55,932 bases of DNA, taken from contig JAGRDO010000062.1 of assembly GCA_020447005.1 (NCBI GenBank), positions 26,202 through 82,133 of the forward strand. Reading direction: 5' to 3'. A program made the translations under genes and the position numbers. The stretch comes from Paracoccaceae bacterium (GTDB taxonomy: Bacteria; Pseudomonadota; Alphaproteobacteria; Rhodobacterales; Rhodobacteraceae). Under the pieces are notes generated by a model. It was not told the origin of the DNA and did not search any database. It saw only the letters and a program-made list of their open reading frames with translations. Numbering within the stretch: position 1 is the first letter of the stretch; the number at the start of each line of letters is the position of its first letter. This document shows positions 3,431 through 50,271 of the stretch, one piece after another.

Positions 3431-3718
3431 TCAGGACAGGGCGGCGCCAAGCTGCATGGCAAGGCCCATGTCGCCATCCACCGCAAGTTTTCCCTGCATG
3501 AAGGCAGCCGTCGGGTTCACGTCACCACTCAGGATGCCTTCAAAAGTTTCCCGGTCCGCCGTCAGAGTGACATCGGCTTCGTCATCCCCGGCACGCACAC
3601 CATTGCCGTCGACAACCAGGGCGCCTTCGCCCTCGATCACGAATTTTGCCGTTCCCGAAATCCCGCCGGACAGCTTTTCGCTCAGCGCGGCGACCGCCGC
3701 ATTCACAACGTCACTCAT
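3431..3718 (-). CDS. SCP2 sterol-binding-domain protein
   Basis: A 95-residue single-domain protein of the sterol carrier protein 2 fold, which binds lipids or acyl-CoA in a hydrophobic tunnel. The typical closing pattern is present: TADRETFEGILSGDVNPTAAFMQGKLAVDGDMGLAMQL, where the GDVNPTAAFMQGKL core is diagnostic. The frame is open further upstream, but the ATG at 3716-3718 has a strong GGAGGAA Shine-Dalgarno sequence just ahead of it. It precedes the lysophospholipase gene by 9 bp, consistent with a small lipid-metabolism operon. Bacterial ligands are unknown. Confidence 0.88.
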   Translation of the reverse strand: MSDVVNAAVAALSEKLSGGISGTAKFVIEGEGALVVDGNGVRAGDDEADVTLTADRETFEGILSGDVNPTAAFMQGKLAVDGDMGLAMQLGAALS

Positions 3719-3797
3719 TCTTCCTCCAATCGTGATTGCCGGAGAACCGCAAATCCCTCGCCATCTCCGGGCCCGTTCGGATACACTGTGCATCGTT

Positions 3798-4358
3798 ATG
3801 GGACGTTTCGCCACCCACCTGTGCGTGTTTTTCATCGTGCTTGCCGCCACGTCGCTGGCCGCGGGGCCGATCCGCGCGGCGTCGGAAACGCTCGACCAGC
3901 TTTACTCGGAACTGGCCGATCCGGATAACGCTGACTGGCCACGCGTACAGGCCGACATTCTGCGGGAATGGTCGCGGTCCGGTTCCCCGTCCATGGACCT
4001 TCTTTTGAAGCGCGGACGCGATGCGATGAACGCGGGCGATCTTCAGGCGGCGATCGAACATCTTACCGCGCTGGTGGATCACGCCCCTGACTTTGCCGAA
4101 GGATGGAACGCGCGTGCGACAGCTTACTATCTTGCCGGAGAGTTCGGGCCATCCGTCTCCGACATCCAGCATGTGCTTGCGCTGAACCCGCACCATTTCG
4201 GCGCCCTGTCGGGCTATGGCAAGATCCTTGAGGCGCTTGGCAAGGATGATCTGGCCAAACGTGTATATGCGGCGTCGCTCGCTATACATCCCCATCAAGA
4301 GGCGATAAAGCAGGCCCTCGAACAGCTGAACCTTAAATCCACAGGTACCGAGCTTTAG
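3798..4358 (+). CDS. Exported TPR-repeat protein
   Basis: A 186-residue protein with an N-terminal signal peptide (hydrophobic FFIVLAATSLAAG after MGRFATHLC) and tandem tetratricopeptide repeats over about residues 65-170 (A-x-x-x-G pattern in GDLQAAIEHL, AEGWNARATAYYLAGEF and FGALSGYGKILEALGK). TPRs mediate protein-protein contact, here in the periplasm. The frame is open upstream, but only the ATG at 3798 gives a clean signal peptide. It is divergent from the SCP2 gene and ends 10 bp before the helicase gene, so it may be read through into it. Partner unknown. Confidence 0.85.
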   Translation: MGRFATHLCVFFIVLAATSLAAGPIRAASETLDQLYSELADPDNADWPRVQADILREWSRSGSPSMDLLLKRGRDAMNAGDLQAAIEHLTALVDHAPDFAEGWNARATAYYLAGEFGPSVSDIQHVLALNPHHFGALSGYGKILEALGKDDLAKRVYAASLAIHPHQEAIKQALEQLNLKSTGTEL

Positions 4359-4368
4359 GAGCGGTTCA

Positions 4369-7134
4369 ATGGCGGCAGAGACGAGGATCACTGCGGTCCT
4401 CGGGCCGACGAACACGGGCAAAACCCATTACGCGATCGAAAGGATGCTGGCGCATCGGACCGGTGTGATCGGCCTGCCATTGCGGCTTTTGGCGCGCGAG
4501 GTCTATGACCGTGTCGTTGCGGCGCGCGGGCCATCGGTGGCAGCATTGGTGACCGGGGAAGAACGGATCGTCGGGTCCCGAGCGCAATACTGGATCTGTA
4601 CGGTCGAAGCGATGCCGACGGATATCGGTTGCGACTTTCTGGCCGTTGACGAGGTTCAGCTTTGCGCCGACCCGGACAGGGGCCATGTCTTTACGGACCG
4701 GCTGCTGAACGCGCGCGGCCTTTCCGAGACGCTTTTCCTGGGCTCGGACGCAATGCGCGGAACAATCGCGGCATTGGTCCCGAAAGTTCAGTTTCTGAAG
4801 CGCGACCGGTTTTCGACGCTGACCTATACCGGTTCCAAGAAACTGAGCCGGATGCCGGCGCGCAGTGCCATTGTCGGGTTTTCGGTTGAAAACGTCTATG
4901 CGATCGCCGAGCTGATCCGCCGCCAGAAGGGCGGGGCGGCCGTGGTGATGGGGGCGCTGAGCCCGCGCACCCGGAACGCACAGGTGGCGATGTACCAGAA
5001 CGGCGAGGTGGATTACCTTGTCGCCACGGATGCCATCGGCATGGGGCTGAACCTCGATATCAATCACGTCGCGTTTTCGGCCACGGCGAAGTTTGATGGC
5101 TGGCGAATGCGTGATCTGTTTCCCCATGAACTGGGCCAGATCGCCGGGCGGGCCGGACGCTACATGACACCCGGCAGCTTTGGCGTGACGGGTGAAGCCG
5201 CGCCCCTTGGCGATGATGTCGCCGAGGCAATCGAAAACCATCGCTTCCGTCCGATCGACCGAATCAACTGGCGGTCGAGCGATCTGGATTTCAGCGGACT
5301 GGACGGCTTGATCGCCTCGCTCGAAGCCGGCCCGCAGAATGAACGCCTGATGCGCGGCCGCCCGGCAGATGACCTTCGCGCGCTCAAGGCGCTTGCCGAG
5401 CAGCAGCAGATTATCGATCGCGTGCGTCATCCCCGCGATCTGCGACTTTTGTGGGATGTCTGCAGAATCCCTGATTTTCAGGGCATTTCGGCGCAAGAAC
5501 ACGCGAATCTGCTGCTGCGCATACACGGATTCCTGCAAGACGGCCACGTTCCGGACGACTGGCTGGCAGCGCAAATCCGCCGGATCGACAAGATTGCGGG
5601 CGATATCGAAACAATATCGAAAAGGTTGGCATATATCCGCACATGGACATACGTCGCGCAGCGCTCGGGCTGGGTCGCGGATGAAAGCCATTGGCGGCAG
5701 GAAACACGCGCTGTAGAAGACCGCCTGTCAGATGCTCTGCATGAAGCTCTGACCCAAAGATTTGTGGACCGGCGGACAAGCGTTCTTCTTCGCCGGCTCA
5801 AGCAGAAGGAGGGCCTCGTGGCCGAGGTGAATGACAAGGGTGAAGTTGCGGTCGAGGGCGAATTCGTCGGTCGGCTGGAAGGGTTCCGCTTCCGGCAGGA
5901 CAGCTCGGCCTCGCCCGACGCTGCCAAGACGCTGAAGCAGGCTGCCTATGAAGCCCTGCGCCCGGAGTTTCATCTTCGCGCGGATCGTTTCTATAACGCG
6001 CCGGATACCGAGATCGACTTTACCGAGCAGGGCGGCCTGATGTGGGGAACATCCGCGGTCGGCAAGCTCGTCAAAGGCCCCGACGCGATGAGGCCGCAGG
6101 TCGAAGCCTTCGTCGACGAAGAAGCGGGCTTTGACGTGGCTGAAAAGGTGCGCCGTCGGTTGCAGCATTTCATTGACCGCCGGGTCGCGACGCTGTTTGA
6201 GCCGTTGCTGAACATTCAGCGCGATGAAACGCTGGCCGGGCTTGCACGCGGCTTTGCGTTCCGCCTGATCGAGGCGCTGGGCGTGCTGCCCCGCGAAGGG
6301 GTTGCGGATGAAGTCAAGGCGCTGGATCAGGACATGCGCGGCGCCCTTCGAAAGCACGGCGTCCGGTTCGGTCAGTATACGATCTTTCAGCCCGCGCTGC
6401 TGAAACCCGCTCCGACGCGGCTGCGGCTTGTCCTGTGGTCGTTGAATGAGCGTCTGGACGAATTTCCCGAAAGCCCGCCGCCGGGTCTGGTGACCGTGCC
6501 GAACCTGCCGGATGTTCCGAAAGGGTATTACACGCTTTCCGGATATCACCCCGCCGGTGCACGCGCGATCCGCATAGACATGCTGGAACGCCTTGCCGAT
6601 ATCTTGCGGACGATGGACAGCCGTACGGGGTTCGAGGCCAACCCCGACATGTTGTCCATCACCGGCATGACGTTGGAGCAGTTCGCCGATCTTATGGACG
6701 GGCTGGGCTACAAGGGCGAAAAGGGCGAACGCGAGAAAGTCCGCTCGGAACCGGTCGCGGCCCCGGTCGAGGAAGGCAAGACCGCCAATCCGATCACCGA
6801 GGAAGAAGCGGCCCTTCAGACGGTCACGGAAACCGAAACCTACTTCACCTTCACCTGGGTGCCCAAACCGCGCGCGCCGCGGGGCGAACGCCCGCAACGC
6901 AATCGGCGGCCCGAGTCCGGGGAACGCCGGGCCGACAAGCCGCGCGGAGACCGGAGCGGGGCAAAGTTCGGCAAGGGCAAACCTGGCGGCAAACCTGGCG
7001 GCAAACCTGGCGGCAAGCCCAAGCGCGAGGATCAAGGCGAGCGCAAGTTTGAATCCCGCCCGCCGAAGAAGGACCGTATTGACCCGGACAACCCCTTCGC
7101 CGCCGCCCTTATGGGATTGAAGGGCAAGATCTGA
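4369..7134 (+). CDS. Suv3-like DEAD/DEAH-type RNA helicase
   Basis: A 921-residue SF2 helicase related to mitochondrial Suv3. Motif I is GPTNTGKT (residues 12-19), motif II is DEVQ (94-97), ATDAIGMGLNLD (219-230) is motif V, and QIAGRAGR (257-264) is motif VI. The long middle and C-terminal part has no motif I can name. The end is a basic, disordered tail rich in Lys/Gly/Arg with a perfect repeat of the tetrapeptide KPGG (about 6979-7017), a plausible RNA-binding or protein-contact tail. In mitochondria Suv3 works with a 3' exonuclease in RNA turnover; the bacterial role is inferred. The next gene is an S4 RNA-binding protein, 7 bp downstream, suggesting a joint RNA function. Confidence 0.88.
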   Translation: MAAETRITAVLGPTNTGKTHYAIERMLAHRTGVIGLPLRLLAREVYDRVVAARGPSVAALVTGEERIVGSRAQYWICTVEAMPTDIGCDFLAVDEVQLCADPDRGHVFTDRLLNARGLSETLFLGSDAMRGTIAALVPKVQFLKRDRFSTLTYTGSKKLSRMPARSAIVGFSVENVYAIAELIRRQKGGAAVVMGALSPRTRNAQVAMYQNGEVDYLVATDAIGMGLNLDINHVAFSATAKFDGWRMRDLFPHELGQIAGRAGRYMTPGSFGVTGEAAPLGDDVAEAIENHRFRPIDRINWRSSDLDFSGLDGLIASLEAGPQNERLMRGRPADDLRALKALAEQQQIIDRVRHPRDLRLLWDVCRIPDFQGISAQEHANLLLRIHGFLQDGHVPDDWLAAQIRRIDKIAGDIETISKRLAYIRTWTYVAQRSGWVADESHWRQETRAVEDRLSDALHEALTQRFVDRRTSVLLRRLKQKEGLVAEVNDKGEVAVEGEFVGRLEGFRFRQDSSASPDAAKTLKQAAYEALRPEFHLRADRFYNAPDTEIDFTEQGGLMWGTSAVGKLVKGPDAMRPQVEAFVDEEAGFDVAEKVRRRLQHFIDRRVATLFEPLLNIQRDETLAGLARGFAFRLIEALGVLPREGVADEVKALDQDMRGALRKHGVRFGQYTIFQPALLKPAPTRLRLVLWSLNERLDEFPESPPPGLVTVPNLPDVPKGYYTLSGYHPAGARAIRIDMLERLADILRTMDSRTGFEANPDMLSITGMTLEQFADLMDGLGYKGEKGEREKVRSEPVAAPVEEGKTANPITEEEAALQTVTETETYFTFTWVPKPRAPRGERPQRNRRPESGERRADKPRGDRSGAKFGKGKPGGKPGGKPGGKPKREDQGERKFESRPPKKDRIDPDNPFAAALMGLKGKI
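6979..7017 (+). repeat. 12-bp in-frame tandem repeat (KPGG) in helicase tail
   Basis: The unit aaacctggcggc occurs three times head to tail, followed by a diverged fourth copy. Each unit encodes KPGG. The copies are identical at third positions, which points to recent slippage expansion rather than selection on the protein alone. Copy number may differ between strains. Confidence 0.85.
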
Positions 7135-7141
7135 GACGCCG

Positions 7142-7444
7142 TTGCCCGACGACCGCATCCGCATCGACAAATGGCTCTGGCAGGCGCGGTTCTTCAAGAC
7201 CCGCGGTCTCGCCTCTGAAATGGTGACCGCCGGGCATCTTCGTGTGAATGGCGACAAGACCGCCAAACCGGGCCGGGCGGTCGGGCAGGGCGATGTACTG
7301 ACCTTTCGTCAGGCGGGCGTGATCCGGGTGATACGGATCCTCGCCTGCGGGACAAGGCGTGGACCCGCGCCCGAGGCGCGCGGTCTCTACGAAGATCTTG
7401 CCGTCCCCGACGGCGTCCCGGTTTCCGCCAGCGAAGGGGAATAA
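7142..7444 (+). CDS. S4-domain RNA-binding protein (Hsp15/HslR-like)
   Basis: A 100-residue protein starting almost directly with the S4 fold: RIDKWLWQARFFKTRGLA, then VTAGHLRVNG and a GQGDVLTF strand, as in Hsp15. Hsp15 binds 50S subunits carrying stalled nascent chains; that role is known for E. coli and only inferred here. It is shorter than E. coli Hsp15 (about 133 residues), lacking much of the basic C-terminal tail. The start appears to be TTG at 7142, 7 bp after the helicase stop; no ATG or GTG in frame would keep the first S4 helix. Probably translated together with the helicase. Confidence 0.85.
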   Translation: MPDDRIRIDKWLWQARFFKTRGLASEMVTAGHLRVNGDKTAKPGRAVGQGDVLTFRQAGVIRVIRILACGTRRGPAPEARGLYEDLAVPDGVPVSASEGE

Positions 7445-7559
7445 TTTCTCGCCGGGCCGTGCCATCGGCATTGCCCGGTCTTTCCGCCAGTCCGCGACTT
7501 GAATGATGGTCGTCTTGGGGCTAGGTAGCGGCGGAAACACCATGACCCGGATGCTGAAC

Positions 7560-7898
7560 ATGACCTATGTCGTCACCGATAACTGCATCGCCTGCAAATA
7601 CACCGACTGCGTGGAAGTCTGCCCGGTCGACTGCTTCTACGAAGGCGAGAACATGCTTGTCATCCACCCCGATGAATGCATCGATTGCGGTGTCTGCGAA
7701 CCGGAATGCCCCGCTGACGCGATCCGTCCGGATACCGAGCCGGATCTGGATAAATGGGTCGAGTTCAATCGCAAATATTCCGAGATGTGGCCGGTTATCA
7801 CCCAACGCAAGGATCCCCTTCCCGAAGCCGAGGCGCGCGACGGGGAAACCGGTAAGCTGGACAAGTACTTCTCCGAAGCGCCGGGCGAGGGCGATTGA
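7560..7898 (+). CDS. fdxA: 7Fe ferredoxin (3Fe-4S/4Fe-4S)
   Basis: A 112-residue FdxA-type ferredoxin. Two cluster motifs are visible near the N-terminus: [17 protein letters not shown] for the 3Fe-4S side and [12 protein letters not shown] for the 4Fe-4S side, in the usual Azotobacter FdI-like order. A small cytoplasmic electron carrier. The frame is open from 7503, but the ATG at 7560 gives the conserved N-terminus MTYVVTDNC. It ends in a pair of hairpins (see 7897-7937). Physiological partner not evident. Confidence 0.93.
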
Positions 7899-7937
7899 TT
7901 CGCTGCGAATCGCCTTTCTGATTCGTTTTGGCGAATC
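7897..7937 (+). terminator. Two tandem GATTCG/CGAATC hairpins at the fdxA 3' end
   Basis: Two inverted repeats with the same 6-bp arms follow one another: GATTCG-CTG-CGAATC (7897-7911, overlapping the fdxA stop codon) and GATTCG-TTTTGG-CGAATC (7920-7937). There is no clear run of T after either. They could act as a terminator/mRNA-stabilising pair or a protein-binding dyad. The rest of the 7938-8197 gap is unusually AT-rich near 8015-8045, with a TATATT at 8037-8042 that may be the carD -10 box, but the -35 is weak. Confidence 0.5.
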
Positions 7938-8197
7938 GTTGGAAACAAAGAAAATCAAGCACGTAATCTTGTGCGTCTGTGCGGCATTGGTCCCCACCGC
8001 TGCATCGCGGCACTTTAAAATATTTGGTTTTTCGATTATATTACTGTCACACAGTTGGATGAGGATACCCGATCTCGCCGAGGGCTGAGCCGGTGGTGGG
8101 GACTGCTGCGACGAAATAACGGTGCGACCGGCTCTTGTTTGAACCGGGCGCATTTTCTTCGCCGTGACGATCGGTGTCCGGACAAGGATGAATGTTT

Positions 8198-8707
8198 ATG
8201 AGCAAGACCAAGAAGAACGAATTCCATCCCAATGAATTCGTCGTGTATCCGGCCCATGGCGTCGGCCGCATCATGGCCGTCGAAGAGCAGGAAATCGCCG
8301 GGCTGAAGCTTGAGCTTTTCGTGATCTCGTTCGAAAAGGACAAGATGACCCTGCGCGTGCCGACGCATAAGGCGACCGAAATCGGCATGCGGCAGCTGTC
8401 GTCGCCCGATCTGATTTCCAAGGCGCTGGAAACGTTGAAGGGCAAGGCCCGGACCAAGCGGGCCATGTGGTCGCGCCGGGCGCAGGAATACGAACAGAAG
8501 ATCAATTCCGGTGACCTCATGGCCATCGCGGAAGTGGTGCGCGATCTGCACCGGACCGATGACCAGCGCGAGCAAAGCTATTCCGAGCGGCAGCTTTATG
8601 AAGCCGCGCTCGATCGCCTGACCCGCGAAGTGGCGGCCGTCTCTGGCGTTGACGAGGCCGGTGCCCAGAAAAAGGTCGACGATGTTCTGTTGTCGCGCGC
8701 TGCGTGA
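8198..8707 (+). CDS. CarD/CdnL family transcription regulator
   Basis: A 169-residue protein with an N-terminal RNA-polymerase-interacting domain (FVVYPAHGVGRI, a CarD-family hallmark) and a helical C-terminal half (SRRAQEYEQKINSGDLMAIAEVVRDL). CarD/CdnL proteins bind the RNAP beta subunit and stabilise open promoter complexes, notably at rRNA promoters. Of two in-frame ATGs (8192 and 8198) the second is better placed behind AAGGA at 8184-8188. It is a single-gene unit, closed by a strong terminator at 8733-8759. Confidence 0.93.
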   Translation: MSKTKKNEFHPNEFVVYPAHGVGRIMAVEEQEIAGLKLELFVISFEKDKMTLRVPTHKATEIGMRQLSSPDLISKALETLKGKARTKRAMWSRRAQEYEQKINSGDLMAIAEVVRDLHRTDDQREQSYSERQLYEAALDRLTREVAAVSGVDEAGAQKKVDDVLLSRAA

Positions 8708-43510: not shown

Positions 43511-44869
43511 ATGAAATTCGACTACGATCTTTTCGTCATTGGCGGTGGCTCGGGCGGCGTGCGGGCAGCGCGGATCGCGGCGGGCGAACACGGTGCAAAG
43601 GTCGCCGTGGCCGAGGAATATCGGATGGGGGGCACCTGCGTGATCCGCGGCTGTGTCCCCAAGAAGATCATGGTTTTTGCCTCAACCTATGCCCCGGCCA
43701 TGGAAGATGCGCGGGCCTATGGCTGGAATGTCATGGCAGAGGGGTTTGACTGGGGGCGGTTCCGCAAGCGCCTCGATGCCGAAATCGACCGGCTGGAAGG
43801 CGTCTACCGCGCGGGATTGGCGGGCGCCAAGGTCGATGTCTATGACTGCCGCGCAACGCTGAAGGATGCCCATACCGTCCGGCTGGCCAACGGCGACACG
43901 GTAAGCGCCAAGCACATCCTGATCGCGACCGGCGGGCGCCCCTATTTGCCGCCGAAAGCTGAAGCCGCCGGGGTGATGACATCGAACGACATCTTCAAGC
44001 TGGAGACATTGCCGAAGTCGGTCCTGATTGTCGGCGGCGGGTTCATATCTTGTGAGTTCGCCTGTATTCTCAATGGATTGGGCGTAAACGTCACCCAGTA
44101 TTACCGCGGGGAACAGATCCTGCGGGGCTTTGATGGCGAGGCGCGCGGCCATATTGCCGAGCTTATGCGCGAAAGTGGCGTCAACCTGCATGTCGGCACC
44201 GATGTGATGGAAATGGAGAAGGTCGAAGGGGGCACGCGGGTTTCATCGACGGACGGGCGCGAAGGCATCTTCGAGGCGGTTGTCTATGCCACGGGCCGGC
44301 TTCCGAACAGCGACGGGCTCGGGCTTGAGGAACTGGGGGTCAAGCTTGGCCGCCGGGGTGAGATCATGGTTGATGAGTGGTCGCAGACGGCCGTGCCGTC
44401 GATCTTTGCCGTGGGCGATGTGACGGATCGGATCAACCTTACACCCATTGCCATTCGCGAAGGGCACGCCTTCGCCGACACGGTCTTTGGCGGGAAGTCC
44501 GTAAAGGCCGATCATGCGCTTGTCCCAAGCGCCGTCTTCACCCAACCCGAGTTCGGCACCGTTGGCCTGACCGAGGAAGAGGCCCGCGACAAGGGGCCGA
44601 TCGAGATCTATGCAACCGCGTTCCGCCCGATGCAGTCGGCCTTTGCCGGCCGCGCGGACAGGGTTCTGATGAAGCTGATCGTTTGCGCCGATACCCGCAA
44701 GGTTCTGGGTTGCCATATCGTCGCTCCGGGCGCTGGCGAGATGATTCAATTGGCGGCCATCGCAATCAAGATGGGTGCGACGAAGGAAGATTTCGATCGG
44801 ACGGTTGCGGTTCATCCCGTAATGGCCGAAGAACTGGTAACTTTGCGAAAGCCGGTCCGGACGGCTTGA
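43511..44869 (+). CDS. gor: Glutathione-disulfide reductase
   Basis: A 452-residue FAD/NADPH oxidoreductase. FAD fold VIGGGSGGVRAAR, redox motif GGTCVIRGCVPKK (Cys43 and Cys48), the second Rossmann GGGFISCEFACIL, and the C-terminal VHPVMAEE with the catalytic His. It reduces GSSG to GSH with NADPH. The ATG at 43511 begins MKFDYDLFVIGGG; an upstream start at 43484 overlaps the rpiA stop. It fits with the adjacent GST gene in thiol metabolism. Confidence 0.94.
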   Translation: MKFDYDLFVIGGGSGGVRAARIAAGEHGAKVAVAEEYRMGGTCVIRGCVPKKIMVFASTYAPAMEDARAYGWNVMAEGFDWGRFRKRLDAEIDRLEGVYRAGLAGAKVDVYDCRATLKDAHTVRLANGDTVSAKHILIATGGRPYLPPKAEAAGVMTSNDIFKLETLPKSVLIVGGGFISCEFACILNGLGVNVTQYYRGEQILRGFDGEARGHIAELMRESGVNLHVGTDVMEMEKVEGGTRVSSTDGREGIFEAVVYATGRLPNSDGLGLEELGVKLGRRGEIMVDEWSQTAVPSIFAVGDVTDRINLTPIAIREGHAFADTVFGGKSVKADHALVPSAVFTQPEFGTVGLTEEEARDKGPIEIYATAFRPMQSAFAGRADRVLMKLIVCADTRKVLGCHIVAPGAGEMIQLAAIAIKMGATKEDFDRTVAVHPVMAEELVTLRKPVRTA

Positions 44870-44937
44870 AATTCCGGGCTGGGTACCCAGTTCGGGTAGG
44901 ATTTGGTTTTGAAAAGCAAGAAGAGGGATACGACCTG

Positions 44938-46083
44938 ATGGCTGGAAGCGGAGGTCCCTGGGGCGGTGGCGGATCTGGTGGCGACGATGACGATCGGCCC
45001 GGTGGCCGCGGCGGTCGGCGTCCGGGGCAGGGTGGCTCTGTCCCCGAGATAGACGAGATCATGAAGAAGGGCGCCGAACAGCTCAAGGTGCTGATGGGCG
45101 GACGGGGCGGCGGGCCGCGCGGGCCCTCGAACGGCGGCGGCGGCGGCGGAGGGCTTCCCGGCCCGCTCATGACGCGAGGGACGCTGGGGCTTGGCGCGCT
45201 GGCCGCTGCTGCGGTCTGGATGTTCGCCAGTTTCTACACGGTGAAACCGGAAGAACAGTCGGTCGAGCTCTTCCTTGGCAAGTTTTCCCAGATCGGGCAG
45301 CCGGGCCTCAATTTTGCGCCTTGGCCCTTTGTGACCGCCAATGTCATCGCGGTGACCCCGGAACGGATCGAAAATATCGGCGTGGGCGGCAGCAATTCCG
45401 ACAGCGGGTTGATGCTGACCGGCGATGAAAACATCGTCGACATCGACTTTCAGGTCGTCTGGAACATCAATGATCCGCAGGAATACCTTTTCAATCTGCG
45501 CGATCCTGAACTGACGATCAACGCCGTCGCGGAATCCGCGATGCGCGAAATCATCGCGCAGTCCCAACTCGCTCCGATCCTGAACCGCGACCGGGGGATC
45601 ATTGCCGAACGTCTGAAGGATCTTATCCAGTCAACGCTCAACAGCTACGATTCAGGGCTGAACATCGTTCGCGTCAACTTTGACCGCGCCGACCCGCCGC
45701 GCGAGGTCATCGATGCCTTCAAGAACGTGCAATCCGCCGAACAGCAGCGCGACCGTTTGCAGAAAGAGGCGGATGCCTATGCAAACACGGTGCTGGCAGG
45801 CGCGCGCGGTCAGGCCGCGCAGCTTCTGGAAGAAGCCGAAGGGTATCGCGCCCAGGTGGTGAACCAGGCAGAGGGTGAAGCCAGCCGCTTCTCGGCGGTG
45901 CTGGGGGAATATGCGAAGGCCCCCGACGTCACGCGCAAGCGGCTCTATCTTGAAACCATGGAAGAGGTCATGGGGCGCGTCGACAAGGTAATCATCGATG
46001 AAAGCCAGGGTGGTCAGGGCGTTGTTCCCTATCTGCCACTGAATGAACTGGGCAAGAAACCGGCGACCGGAGGTACCAACTGA
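44938..46083 (+). CDS. hflK: HflK, membrane protease modulator subunit
   Basis: A 381-residue SPFH/Band 7 protein with a Gly-rich N-terminus, one membrane segment (LGLGALAAAAVWMFASFY), and the band-7 domain (VKPEEQSVELFLGKFSQ through IDFQVVWNINDPQEYLF). With HflC it forms a periplasm-side cage around the FtsH protease. The open frame that runs back into gor is a shadow; the ATG at 44938 starts MAGSGGPWG. It overlaps hflC by 1 bp (TGATG). Confidence 0.94.
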   Translation: MAGSGGPWGGGGSGGDDDDRPGGRGGRRPGQGGSVPEIDEIMKKGAEQLKVLMGGRGGGPRGPSNGGGGGGGLPGPLMTRGTLGLGALAAAAVWMFASFYTVKPEEQSVELFLGKFSQIGQPGLNFAPWPFVTANVIAVTPERIENIGVGGSNSDSGLMLTGDENIVDIDFQVVWNINDPQEYLFNLRDPELTINAVAESAMREIIAQSQLAPILNRDRGIIAERLKDLIQSTLNSYDSGLNIVRVNFDRADPPREVIDAFKNVQSAEQQRDRLQKEADAYANTVLAGARGQAAQLLEEAEGYRAQVVNQAEGEASRFSAVLGEYAKAPDVTRKRLYLETMEEVMGRVDKVIIDESQGGQGVVPYLPLNELGKKPATGGTN

Positions 46084-46952
46084 TGAACCGTGCCGCATTA
46101 CTTCTGCCCGCCACCGTCATCATCATTGCAGCTGCGCTGTCGTCGATCTTCATTGTCGATGAACGCGAAAAGGCGCTGGTTCTTCAATTCGGCCAGATCA
46201 AGGCCGTTCGAGAGGAGCCGGGACTTTATTTCAAGCTGCCGATCATTCAGGAAGTCGTGACCTATGACGACCGTATCCTCGGGCTGGATGTCGACCCTCT
46301 GGAAGTGACCCCGCTGGACGACCGCCGGTTGGTGGTTGACGCCTTCGCGCGCTACCGGATCAGCGATGTGACACGCTTCAGGCAGGCGGTGGGCGCATCG
46401 GGTGTCGCGCTTGCGGAAAACCGCATCGACACCATCCTGCGCGCCCAGACGCGCGAGGTTCTTGGTTCGGTTACCTCGTCCGAGATCCTTTCGGCAGACC
46501 GTGCGGCGCTGGCCGCGCGTATCCGCGACGCATCGCGCAGCGAAGCGAACTCGCTCGGTGTCGAGATCATCGACGTGCGCATCAAACGCACCGACCTGCC
46601 GGAACAAAACCTCGATGCCACCTTTGCCCGGATGCGGGCCGAGCGTGAACGCGAAGCCGCCGATGAAGTCGCGCGCGGTAACGAAGCGGCGCAGCGGGTG
46701 CGCGCCCAGGCCGACCGCACCAAGGTTGAACTGGTCTCCGACGCCCAGCGTCAGGCCGAGATCATCCGAGGCGAAGCCGATGCGCGGCGTAACGCCATCT
46801 TCGCGCAAGCCTACGGGGCCGACCCGGAATTCTTCGATTTCTACCGTTCGCTCGCCGCCTACCGGGCCGGCTTGCTTGCGGGGAATTCGACGATGGTCAT
46901 GGCGCCGGACAGCGAATTCTTTGACTATCTCAAGTCTCCGGAAAAGCGGTAG
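46083..46952 (+). CDS. hflC: HflC, membrane protease modulator subunit
   Basis: A 289-residue SPFH/Band 7 partner of HflK. One N-terminal membrane segment (LLLPATVIIIAAALSSIFIV), then VDEREKALVLQFGQIK, DPLEVTPLDDRRLVVDAFARYRI, a long helical part and EFFDFYRSLAAYRAGL near the C-terminus. Its start codon overlaps the hflK stop and it ends 2 bp before the DUF2065 gene. Confidence 0.95.
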   Translation: MNRAALLLPATVIIIAAALSSIFIVDEREKALVLQFGQIKAVREEPGLYFKLPIIQEVVTYDDRILGLDVDPLEVTPLDDRRLVVDAFARYRISDVTRFRQAVGASGVALAENRIDTILRAQTREVLGSVTSSEILSADRAALAARIRDASRSEANSLGVEIIDVRIKRTDLPEQNLDATFARMRAEREREAADEVARGNEAAQRVRAQADRTKVELVSDAQRQAEIIRGEADARRNAIFAQAYGADPEFFDFYRSLAAYRAGLLAGNSTMVMAPDSEFFDYLKSPEKR

Positions 46953-46954
46953 CG

Positions 46955-47158
46955 ATGGGGGCATTGGCGCTGATCCTGCTGGCTGTCGGACTGGTGCTGT
47001 CACTGGAGGGGCTGGTGCTTGCGCTGGCCCCTTCGCGCATTGATGACCTGCTGGAACTGATCCGCCAGATGCCTGTCGAGACACGGCGCAACCTCGGGCT
47101 GGCGGCGCTTGCGCTCGGGCTTGCGCTTGTGTGGCTTGCCGGAGGGCTGAGGGCTTGA
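46955..47158 (+). CDS. DUF2065 small membrane protein
   Basis: A 67-residue protein with two membrane segments (ALALILLAVGLVLSLEGLVLALAP and NLGLAALALGLALVWLAGG) joined by a short charged loop (DDLLELIRQMPVETR). It is the DUF2065 family, found after hflC in many alphaproteobacteria; function unknown. It starts 2 bp after the hflC stop, so it belongs to the hflKC operon. Confidence 0.88.
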   Translation: MGALALILLAVGLVLSLEGLVLALAPSRIDDLLELIRQMPVETRRNLGLAALALGLALVWLAGGLRA

Positions 47159-47202
47159 CGCGGAGGCTTCGTCCCTGGTGCCGGGGGTGTTCACGTCAAG
47201 TT

Positions 47203-47252
47203 GAGACGGAATGCACGTCTTTGCGTTGTACCCACATCGCCGAGACGGAATG
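47203..47252 (+). repeat. Direct repeat GAGACGGAATG upstream of degP
   Basis: The 11-mer GAGACGGAATG occurs at 47203-47213 and again at 47242-47252, 39 bp apart, in the 170-bp gap before degP. A GGCCC-GGGCC inverted repeat lies just after (47267-47283). Candidate operator or promoter elements; regulator unknown. Confidence 0.45.
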
Positions 47253-47330
47253 ATAAACAAGGATCGGCCCTTTTTCGCGGGCCTTGCCAAAACAGGTCCC
47301 GATGGGATGCGAACAGGAAGGATATGAACG

Positions 47331-48809
47331 GTGAAAGCGGAAGTCATGACCGGGCGCAAGGCGCCGAGCTGGCGGATGCAAGCCTTTGGCTGGATCTCGG
47401 CCGCAATGCTGGGCTTGGCGCTGAACGTCGCGCAGACCGAGCAGGCTGGTGCGAGCGGCGCGCCTGACAGCTTCGCCGATCTGGCCCAGATGGTCAGCCC
47501 GGCCGTGGTCAATATCACGACAACAACCGTCATCGCGGCGCCGGCCGACGGCGGACCCATCGTTCCCAAAGGCTCTCCGTTCGAGGATTTCTTCAAGGAC
47601 TTTGGCCTTCCCGATGGTCCCTCCGAACGGGGGCCACGCCGCTCGAACGCTCTTGGTTCGGGCTTCGTGATTTCCGAAGACGGTTACATCGTCACGAACA
47701 ACCATGTGATCGAGGGCGCCGATGAGATCTCGATCGAATTCTTCTCGGGCGCGACGCTCGATGCCGAACTGGTTGGAACCGATCCAAAGACCGACATCGC
47801 GCTTTTGAAGGTGAAAAGCGACACGCCCTTGCCCCATGTCAGTTTCGGCAACAGCGATGTCACGCGCGTGGGCGACTGGGTCCTTGCCATGGGCAACCCG
47901 CTCGGTCAGGGGTTTTCCGTCTCGGCCGGGATCGTTTCGGCGCGGAACCGCGAACTTTCCGGGACCTATGATGATTTCATCCAGACGGATGCCGCCATCA
48001 ACCGCGGCAACTCGGGCGGGCCCCTGTTCAACATGGATGGCGAGGTTATCGGCGTGAATACGGCGATCCTCAGCCCCAATGGCGGTTCGATCGGGATCGG
48101 GTTCTCGATGGCGTCCAACGTCGTGTCGAAAGTCGTCGCGCAATTGCAGGAATTCGGTCAGACGCGCCGCGGCTGGTTGGGTGTTCGCATTCAGGATGTG
48201 ACGCCGGACGTGGCCGAGGCGATGGGCCTGGCCAAGGCGGCGGGCGCGCTTGTGACCGAGGTGCCCGACGGGCCTGCCAAGGATGGCGGGCTTGAATCGG
48301 GCGATGTCATCATTTCGTTCGACGGTGCCGATGTAGCGGATACCCGCGAACTCGTCCGCCGTGTGGCGGATGCCGAGGTTGGCCGCGCCGTGCCGGTGGT
48401 TATCCTGCGCAATGGGGACAGCCAGACCCTTATGGTCACGCTCGGTCGCCGCGAAGAGGCCGAAAGCGTGCCTTCGGCCGCAACCCCCGGGGCGGAAGAG
48501 CCGCCGGCGCAGCAAGACCTGCTTGGCATGACGCTGGGCGTTCTGGGCAGTGATGATCGCGACCGGCTTGGGCTGTCGTCTGACACCGAAGGGCTGATCA
48601 TCGCCGCCATCGACCAATCGAGCGATGCTTTCGGCAAGGGATTGCGCGCCGATGACGTGATCACCGAGGCCGGGCAGCAAAAGGTCGCTTCGATTGCGGA
48701 TCTTCAGGCGCGGATCGACGAGGCGAAGGATGCCGGTCGCGAAACGCTTCTGCTTCTGATCCGGCGAGAGGGAGAGCCGCGTTTCGTCGCCTTGGCTGTA
48801 AACGAGTAA
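47331..48809 (+). CDS. degP: DegP/HtrA-family periplasmic serine protease
   Basis: A 492-residue trypsin-like protease with two PDZ domains. After a signal segment (FGWISAAMLGLALNVAQTEQAGAS) come the catalytic triad regions NNHVIEGAD (His), DPKTDIALLKV (Asp) and NRGNSGGPLF (Ser). PDZ domains at about residues 280-370 and 400-490. It degrades misfolded periplasmic proteins. The GTG at 47331 is used, with AGGAAGGA nearby; an ATG at 47346 is also possible. It follows hflKC-DUF2065 after 172 bp and ends at a terminator. Confidence 0.93.
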   Translation: MKAEVMTGRKAPSWRMQAFGWISAAMLGLALNVAQTEQAGASGAPDSFADLAQMVSPAVVNITTTTVIAAPADGGPIVPKGSPFEDFFKDFGLPDGPSERGPRRSNALGSGFVISEDGYIVTNNHVIEGADEISIEFFSGATLDAELVGTDPKTDIALLKVKSDTPLPHVSFGNSDVTRVGDWVLAMGNPLGQGFSVSAGIVSARNRELSGTYDDFIQTDAAINRGNSGGPLFNMDGEVIGVNTAILSPNGGSIGIGFSMASNVVSKVVAQLQEFGQTRRGWLGVRIQDVTPDVAEAMGLAKAAGALVTEVPDGPAKDGGLESGDVIISFDGADVADTRELVRRVADAEVGRAVPVVILRNGDSQTLMVTLGRREEAESVPSAATPGAEEPPAQQDLLGMTLGVLGSDDRDRLGLSSDTEGLIIAAIDQSSDAFGKGLRADDVITEAGQQKVASIADLQARIDEAKDAGRETLLLLIRREGEPRFVALAVNE

Positions 48810-49823: not shown

Positions 49824-50213
49824 TTACTTGGCCGTGGCAATTCCGGTACCGCGATCCGATTGCACCAGAAGCTTATCCAGCATTGGCGTGATATCCTCGA
49901 TCGTATCCGCGACGACATGAATGACCTCGCCCTCCCGCTGGATGCGCCCGGTCACCCGCAAGAGCCGCCCGGCGATTACCGCGCGGCGGAAGCGCTCAAA
50001 GACCTTGGCCCAGATGACGACATTGGCCACGCCGGTTTCATCCTCGAGCGTCACGAAGACGACGCCGCGCGCGGTGCCGGGGCGCTGCCGTACAAGGACA
50101 AGCCCCGCCACCGTCACGCGCGCGCCAGGGGGCGGTTCGTTCAATCGCGCATGGGGCAGCGCGGCCGGCGGGCGCGGCCAGTCGCGGCGGGGGCTGGGGT
50201 CGGTCAGCAACAT
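49824..50213 (-). CDS. OB-fold protein, remnant of the DnaE2 C-terminus
   Basis: A 129-residue ORF. From about residue 28 it matches the very end of error-prone DNA polymerase DnaE2: [55 protein letters not shown] and [15 protein letters not shown], i.e. the OB domain that follows the polymerase core. The PHP, palm, fingers and clamp parts (some 950 residues) are absent, and the flanks are EamA and pepT, not imuA/imuB. The first 27 residues are Pro/Arg-rich and unplaced. A perfect LexA box and a TATATT -10 abut the ATG, so the transcript may be leaderless. Either a deletion remnant or a small SOS-induced DNA-binding protein. Confidence 0.82.
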
Positions 50214-50215
50214 AA

Positions 50216-50230
50216 GAACAAATATAGAAC
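50216..50230 (-). promoter_or_regulatory. LexA (SOS) box with overlapping -10 before the DnaE2 remnant
   Basis: On the minus strand GTTC-TATATTT-GTTC is a perfect GTTC-N7-GTTC alphaproteobacterial LexA site, 2 bp from the start codon. It encloses TATATT (50226-50221), a -10 whose expected start point falls on the A of the ATG. A TGGACT at 50248-50243, 16 bp upstream, is a fair -35. LexA binding here would block RNA polymerase directly. Confidence 0.85.
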
Positions 50231-50271
50231 AAATTCCGGAGCAGTCCAGTCCGGCGCCCTTTTCCCCCGCC

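Follow-up and report, generated by a model that had tools for sequence, protein, structure and literature searches.

The window analysed here (55,932 nucleotides of contig JAGRDO010000062.1 from a Paracoccaceae bacterium) carries on its minus strand a stand-alone gene of 129 amino acids (49,824..50,213) that, judged from its sequence, is the detached C-terminal OB domain of the error-prone DNA polymerase DnaE2. We think it likely that fission of dnaE2 gave rise to a damage-induced OB subunit, which acts in trans with a DnaE2 lacking this domain (OB-less DnaE2). Homology, tiling of the two genes, their co-occurrence, LexA-type boxes, promoter geometry, purifying selection and an intermediate were all observed. 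The open reading frame (ORF; ATG at 50,213-50,211) matches the NCBIfam model PRK05672 'error-prone DNA polymerase' only at positions 944-1043 of 1047 (E 8e-33), and the Pfam OB fold PF01336 with an E of 1e-12, in agreement with an earlier note on this DNA that had assigned it to the last OB domain of DnaE2 only. The OB-fold core comprises residues 33-108 (49,890..50,117, minus strand), with the PF01336 match and the strands of the predicted model. The structure prediction (mean predicted local distance difference test score, pLDDT, 86.8) gave the five strands of an OB barrel (E31-42, E51-57, E60-66, E83-93 and E96-106, in the 128-residue numbering of the domain and profile queries, which lacked the first Met), and the lists from structure searches were filled with OB domains. 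A profile-based sequence search of the PDB returned no match.

A search of the same genome for polymerase cores found two places: contig C83 carries a core of DnaE1 type, and contig C164 one of DnaE2 type, which ends directly before the OB domain. The C-terminal half of the C164 protein corresponds to PRK05672 positions 406-940 of 1047 and contains PF07733 (part), PF17657 and PF14579 (fingers and HhH), and no OB domain was found in this half by the Pfam scan; with positions 944-1043 in the window ORF, the two genes thus tile one DnaE2 (the C164 gene is broken by a ten-base N run, and the scan in one piece covered its C-terminal half). Counted from the N-terminal motif, the OB-less DnaE2 of relatives has 926-1005 amino acids up to the stop (of those examined, L229 alone has a broken frame), and the DnaE2 core of genome G214 has the PHP domain too. 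The OB domain that usually ends the DnaE2 chain is instead encoded by the window ORF, which lies at least 58 kb from either end of its contig (134,714 bases) and is thus not next to dnaE2. A search of the whole genome for the cassette genes, which the earlier note had proposed, recovered imuA and imuB (both on other contigs) and, in place of a full-length dnaE2, only the OB-less core. The same note had supposed an internal deletion, and a deletion scar or pseudogene kept by chance would agree with an ORF that is a short fragment of a larger gene. We give this next to no chance: the catalytic part sits on another contig and ends at the OB boundary, the short OB gene, and with it the split, recurs in over 100 genera with a conserved promoter, and in G214 the two parts are separated by an inverted gene, the OB gene being already boxed. 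The median ratio of nonsynonymous to synonymous substitution rates (dN/dS) of the stand-alone OB gene within the genus is 0.22, not near 1, as befits the selected small OB-fold protein that the note had also envisaged. A sequencing error hiding a full dnaE2 frame was ruled out, with a gene that we take to be pepT-like directly upstream and the catalytic part on the other contig.

The stand-alone proteins have a motif of their own before the OB fold, here WPRPP (residues 12-16; 50,166..50,180, minus strand). W[PI]xPP is present in 47/47 box-bearing stand-alone ORFs (a few being one gene under two identifiers) and in none of the 24 linkers examined of whole DnaE2; the box-less stand-alone locus L016 is without it. 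Cyanobacterial DnaE is a split intein whose halves are trans-spliced, and the present case is alike in being a C-family polymerase in two pieces with a precise junction. That the halves described here are likewise trans-spliced into one DnaE2 is of negligible probability: the tail of the core after the conserved L[TS][PQ] has 2-54 amino acids (26/26) and the OB protein has 7-39 amino acids before WPxPP (47/47), and both are too short and too variable for intein halves of the usual sizes, leaving no room for an intein.

In alphaproteobacteria the LexA regulon is marked by a GTTC-N7-GTTC box overlapping the promoter, and such a box is present at the window OB gene. A perfect GTTCTATATTTGTTC (50,230-50,216, minus strand) stands two bases before the ATG, TATATT (50,221..50,226, minus strand), a putative -10 element, lies within it, and no Shine-Dalgarno precedes the ATG, all as the earlier note had described. 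GTTC-N7-GTTC is named as a LexA box in passages of PMC6473078. By chance, 1.84 perfect boxes are expected in the window, so that the single box is not significant in itself, and the weight lies in its placement and conservation. Among 58 stand-alone loci (the best-scoring relatives fetched, the window's own included), 53 have a perfect box, and the start codon comes 1-3 nt later in 46 of these 53, which favours the SOS-type promoter and leaderless architecture that the note had read from the window and argues against an ordinary non-SOS gene in the relatives (61 loci entered the box count, of which L185, L189 and L340 were not recognised by the start motif, though their boxes were seen separately; the repeats L005 and L013 were excluded, and other loci may be the same genome under two identifiers). 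Across 45 distinct promoters, the -35 consensus is TTGC (T in 39, T in 31, G in 33 and C in 35) at positions -18 to -15 relative to the box, a TATNTT-like -10 lies inside the box and the ATG follows just after it; the window has a weaker variant at the TTGC site (TGGACT, 50,243..50,248, minus strand, 16 bp from the -10). As the start codon (50,211..50,213) comes 7 nt after the -10, transcription would be expected to begin about there, and the OB mRNA is probably leaderless.

The stand-alone OB gene was surveyed at the level of genus, family and class. Among 22 genomes of the genus, 12 have the short OB gene, 10 have the OB domain in the DnaE2 frame (in G017 DnaE2 leaves the contig inside the OB domain, and G018 has a 729-amino-acid frame), and none has both; the same 12 have a DnaE2 core 82-86% identical to that of the window's genome, the other 10 a less similar form (58-71%). 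The family survey covered 295 genomes, nearly all from different genera, and counted rows among the best 150 of each search: an OB row (frame of at most 420 amino acids; the contig-edge or remnant cases G041, G111 and G198 included) was found in 127, an OB-less-type DnaE2 (at least 73% identity, no fused OB seen) in 122, and both in 116. Both genes share a contig in 16 cases, and in all of these but G214 a distance of 0.2 to 4 Mb separates them. In the best rows of the class survey (289 genomes), the OB domain of members of other families is part of long DnaE2 frames, bar a few rows below 420 amino acids (G569, G595, G707, G751, G752 and G769; mostly near contig ends), for which a second origin of a stand-alone OB is possible. 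All 292 genomes listed in the order-level sample belong to the same family. The split is a lineage trait.

Several observations weigh against an OB subunit that depends on OB-less DnaE2. In genomes G071 (7 contigs, completeness 100%) and G081 (completeness 91%), the OB gene occurs together with ImuB, and no DnaE2 was found; the OB gene may be decaying there after the loss of DnaE2, or may serve a purpose independent of it. In G064 (completeness 99%), OB-less DnaE2 and ImuB are present, and no OB was found. This genome is one of six among the 122 OB-less-type genomes without a short OB row (G025, G064, G084, G162, G182 and G200); no convincing OB match was found in the fragmented G084, G162, G182 and G200, and the DnaE2 of G025, in a frame of 1177 amino acids, probably belongs to a cassette. 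At five stand-alone loci, namely L010, L016, L178 (G294), L184 (G312) and L190 (G167), the 420 nt upstream of the QRPGT motif contain no LexA box with fewer than two mismatches, and constitutive expression or another regulator is possible for them. Distances in the OB tree correlate with those in the DnaE2 tree (r 0.66 over 24 genomes, 0/2000), which may come from shared vertical descent only. The pairing of OB and OB-less DnaE2 is strong with some exceptions, unless these reflect an ongoing loss of single parts. The OB loci of G071 and G081 (L339 and L198) are SOS-boxed, with the start codon 33 nt from the box in G071. In G257 (L340, L312, L292) a boxed OB gene was found together with part of a DnaE2 (79% identity) and with a distant DnaE2 whose frame has 1113 amino acids; its split system may be in the course of replacement.

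The genomes G071 and G081 would suit an OB protein that no longer belongs to the mutasome and acts by itself, either as a small single-stranded DNA (ssDNA)-binding or SSB-like protein induced in the SOS response or as a regulator of another polymerase. Its fold resembles RPA, Stn1 and other OB proteins too, and there is a weak match to the SSB profile (PF00436, 15.9 bits against a cut-off of 26, which does not place the ORF in that family). We judge such independence unlikely: OB-less-type DnaE2 occurs in 116 of the 127 genomes with a short-frame OB row, and of the other 11, G088, G178 and G312 hold DnaE2 pieces and G156 a more divergent full one; in the genus the OB gene is absent where DnaE2 has its own OB; and 12 columns are invariant across 57 OB sequences, stand-alone and fused. 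Still more improbable is a brake, i.e., an OB protein that limits mutagenesis by competing for a partner which whole DnaE2 or DnaE1 also uses. G055, with a split set on its largest contig and a whole cassette on a plasmid, would fit this, whereas the mutual exclusion of split and fused forms in the genus usually leaves no fused DnaE2 to brake, and the OB gene travels with the OB-less core.

An intermediate of the dnaE2 fission is seen in G214, where the OB gene is detached yet still bears the DnaE2 C-terminal tail. At locus L333, the OB-less dnaE2 (3627-6857) is followed by an inverted gene (6929-7771), which presumably resembles dimethylargininase, and by an OB gene (7813-8370), which is preceded by a separate perfect box and whose product has a C-terminal tail that ends in LFPSRDFH; the inverted gene may mark the insertion or inversion that broke dnaE2. 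In the portion of PMC3919608 consulted, SRDF[H/R] is described as a C-terminal motif of ~77% of DnaE2. It was not found in the window ORF. The tree of DnaE2 cores comprises the 48 rows, out of 69, that the filter retained, and only two of these come from other families. In it, 36 split rows group together on one branch (Shimodaira-Hasegawa-like approximate likelihood ratio test, SH-aLRT, 99), and G214 lies between the split and the cassette rows, with a support of only 27 for the branch that would unite it with the former. The OB tree is short, and its resolution is poor: without constraint it needs two changes, and the likelihood improved when the 43 stand-alone rows were constrained to a single clade (approximately unbiased test, AU, p 0.805). 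A degP-like gene is found at 31 of the 57 OB loci compared (own included; flanks differ in length), which fits one relocation of the OB gene.

Alphaproteobacterial imuA-imuB-dnaE2 forms a LexA-controlled mutasome cassette, as in genome G002, where imuA, imuB and whole dnaE2 adjoin. The window's genome has homologous genes behind LexA-type boxes, imuB on contig C51 and an imuA homolog on C125, each with a perfect box (ImuA scores E 1.4e-8 against the NCBIfam ImuA model, yet 34.8 bits against a curated cut-off of 150), and dnaE2 with a box of one mismatch (GAACAAAACGTGAAT, L113:3057-3071). In contrast to the single cassette, DnaE2 is encoded by two genes here, with OB as an extra piece, and the four separately boxed genes are on four contigs. 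Among relatives, the OB-less dnaE2 has a box (at most one mismatch) within 72 nt upstream of the N-terminal motif at 39/40 loci (44 loci tested, of which 4 gave no start motif), compared with 3.9% of 8000 control windows; a perfect box precedes imuB in 24/26 split-lineage rows (own counted twice) and imuA in 10/12 split genomes of the genus. On one replicon of the two-contig genome G021, dnaE2 lies at ~0.40, imuB at ~0.76, OB at ~1.41 and imuA at ~3.00 Mb, all sites being over 350 kb apart. In the split genomes G051, G063, G117 and G204, imuB has stayed within 2-5 kb of dnaE2, so the dispersal looks gradual.

ImuB of the split lineage differs from that of the cassettes in a basic insert around GDAIDQEARATRSRAAKR (e.g., L235:3465-5096), which is present in 26/26 split-lineage rows (25/25 distinct, own being counted twice) and in 0/22 cassette-type rows (about 18 informative, given the repeats L116/L175 and L168/L246 and the partial L036 and L055, which end short of the site). 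This contrast follows phylogeny and does not show contact. The insert as a cause of the fission is unsupported: G214 is split and its ImuB has no insert, so the insert looks later than the split. ImuA is divergent as well, the ImuA of the 12 split genomes having 37-41% identity to the cassette ImuA of G002 (that of the fused G015 is no closer, 35%).

A conserved fission of the dnaE2 gene has thus probably created an SOS-type, probably leaderless OB subunit. A break in the linker ahead of the OB domain would have divided the ancestral dnaE2; the OB part would have acquired a separate leaderless promoter under LexA control and relocated elsewhere on the chromosome, and the polymerase core would have retained its own LexA-type box. 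Upon DNA damage, RecA would trigger LexA cleavage, and imuA, imuB, OB-less dnaE2 and OB would be co-induced from four promoters. We infer that the OB protein works like the OB domain of DnaE2: it would dock on OB-less DnaE2 and/or ImuB, assemble physically with the mutasome, supply the template- or ssDNA-binding function in trans and so have a role in mutagenesis. More tentatively, the OB protein might be a detachable, separately titrated subunit, which is recruited to OB-less DnaE2 only upon damage, through its N-terminal WPRPP and the basic insert of ImuB (GDAIDQEARATRSRAAKR), such that the dose of this small leaderless protein switches template grip and hence mutagenic synthesis; it might perhaps be lent to other polymerases (G071, G081).

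A description of a separate DnaE2 OB gene was not found in the literature searched, and an earlier notice in the 2006 paper on cassette dispersal is possible. OB-less DnaE2 was noted by Timinskas et al. (PMC3919608), in the consulted part of which no separate OB gene is mentioned; here the missing domain is encoded in trans. The DnaE2X systems, in which, according to the part of PMC12926913 consulted, ImuB is split into iPolY and a stand-alone ImuB-C, are alike in having a mutasome protein as separate gene products, ImuB there and DnaE2 here; 'OB domain' and 'OB-fold' are absent from the main text of that paper. A separate OB gene of a C-family polymerase amounts to a natural dissection of the role of the OB domain, and in the split system mutagenesis could be tuned by one small protein. 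The split may also explain some records of 'OB-less' DnaE2. An operon is seen here dissolving while its pieces keep their LexA-type boxes, and the OB gene, readily overlooked or labelled a fragment, is a putative leaderless SOS gene that can be tested throughout the family.

The genes flanking the OB ORF are, as the earlier note had remarked, neither imuA nor imuB; we take them, from their sequences, to be the pepT-like gene and an EamA-type transporter gene. At 44,377-48,809 of the window, adjoining the OB locus, are genes that are presumably HflK/HflC-like and DegP-like. A whole cassette is also found on the conjugative plasmid pDSHI03 of Dinoroseobacter shibae (L347, NC_009957.1 57000-66000), where the gene ahead of it has the annotation SOS response-associated peptidase.
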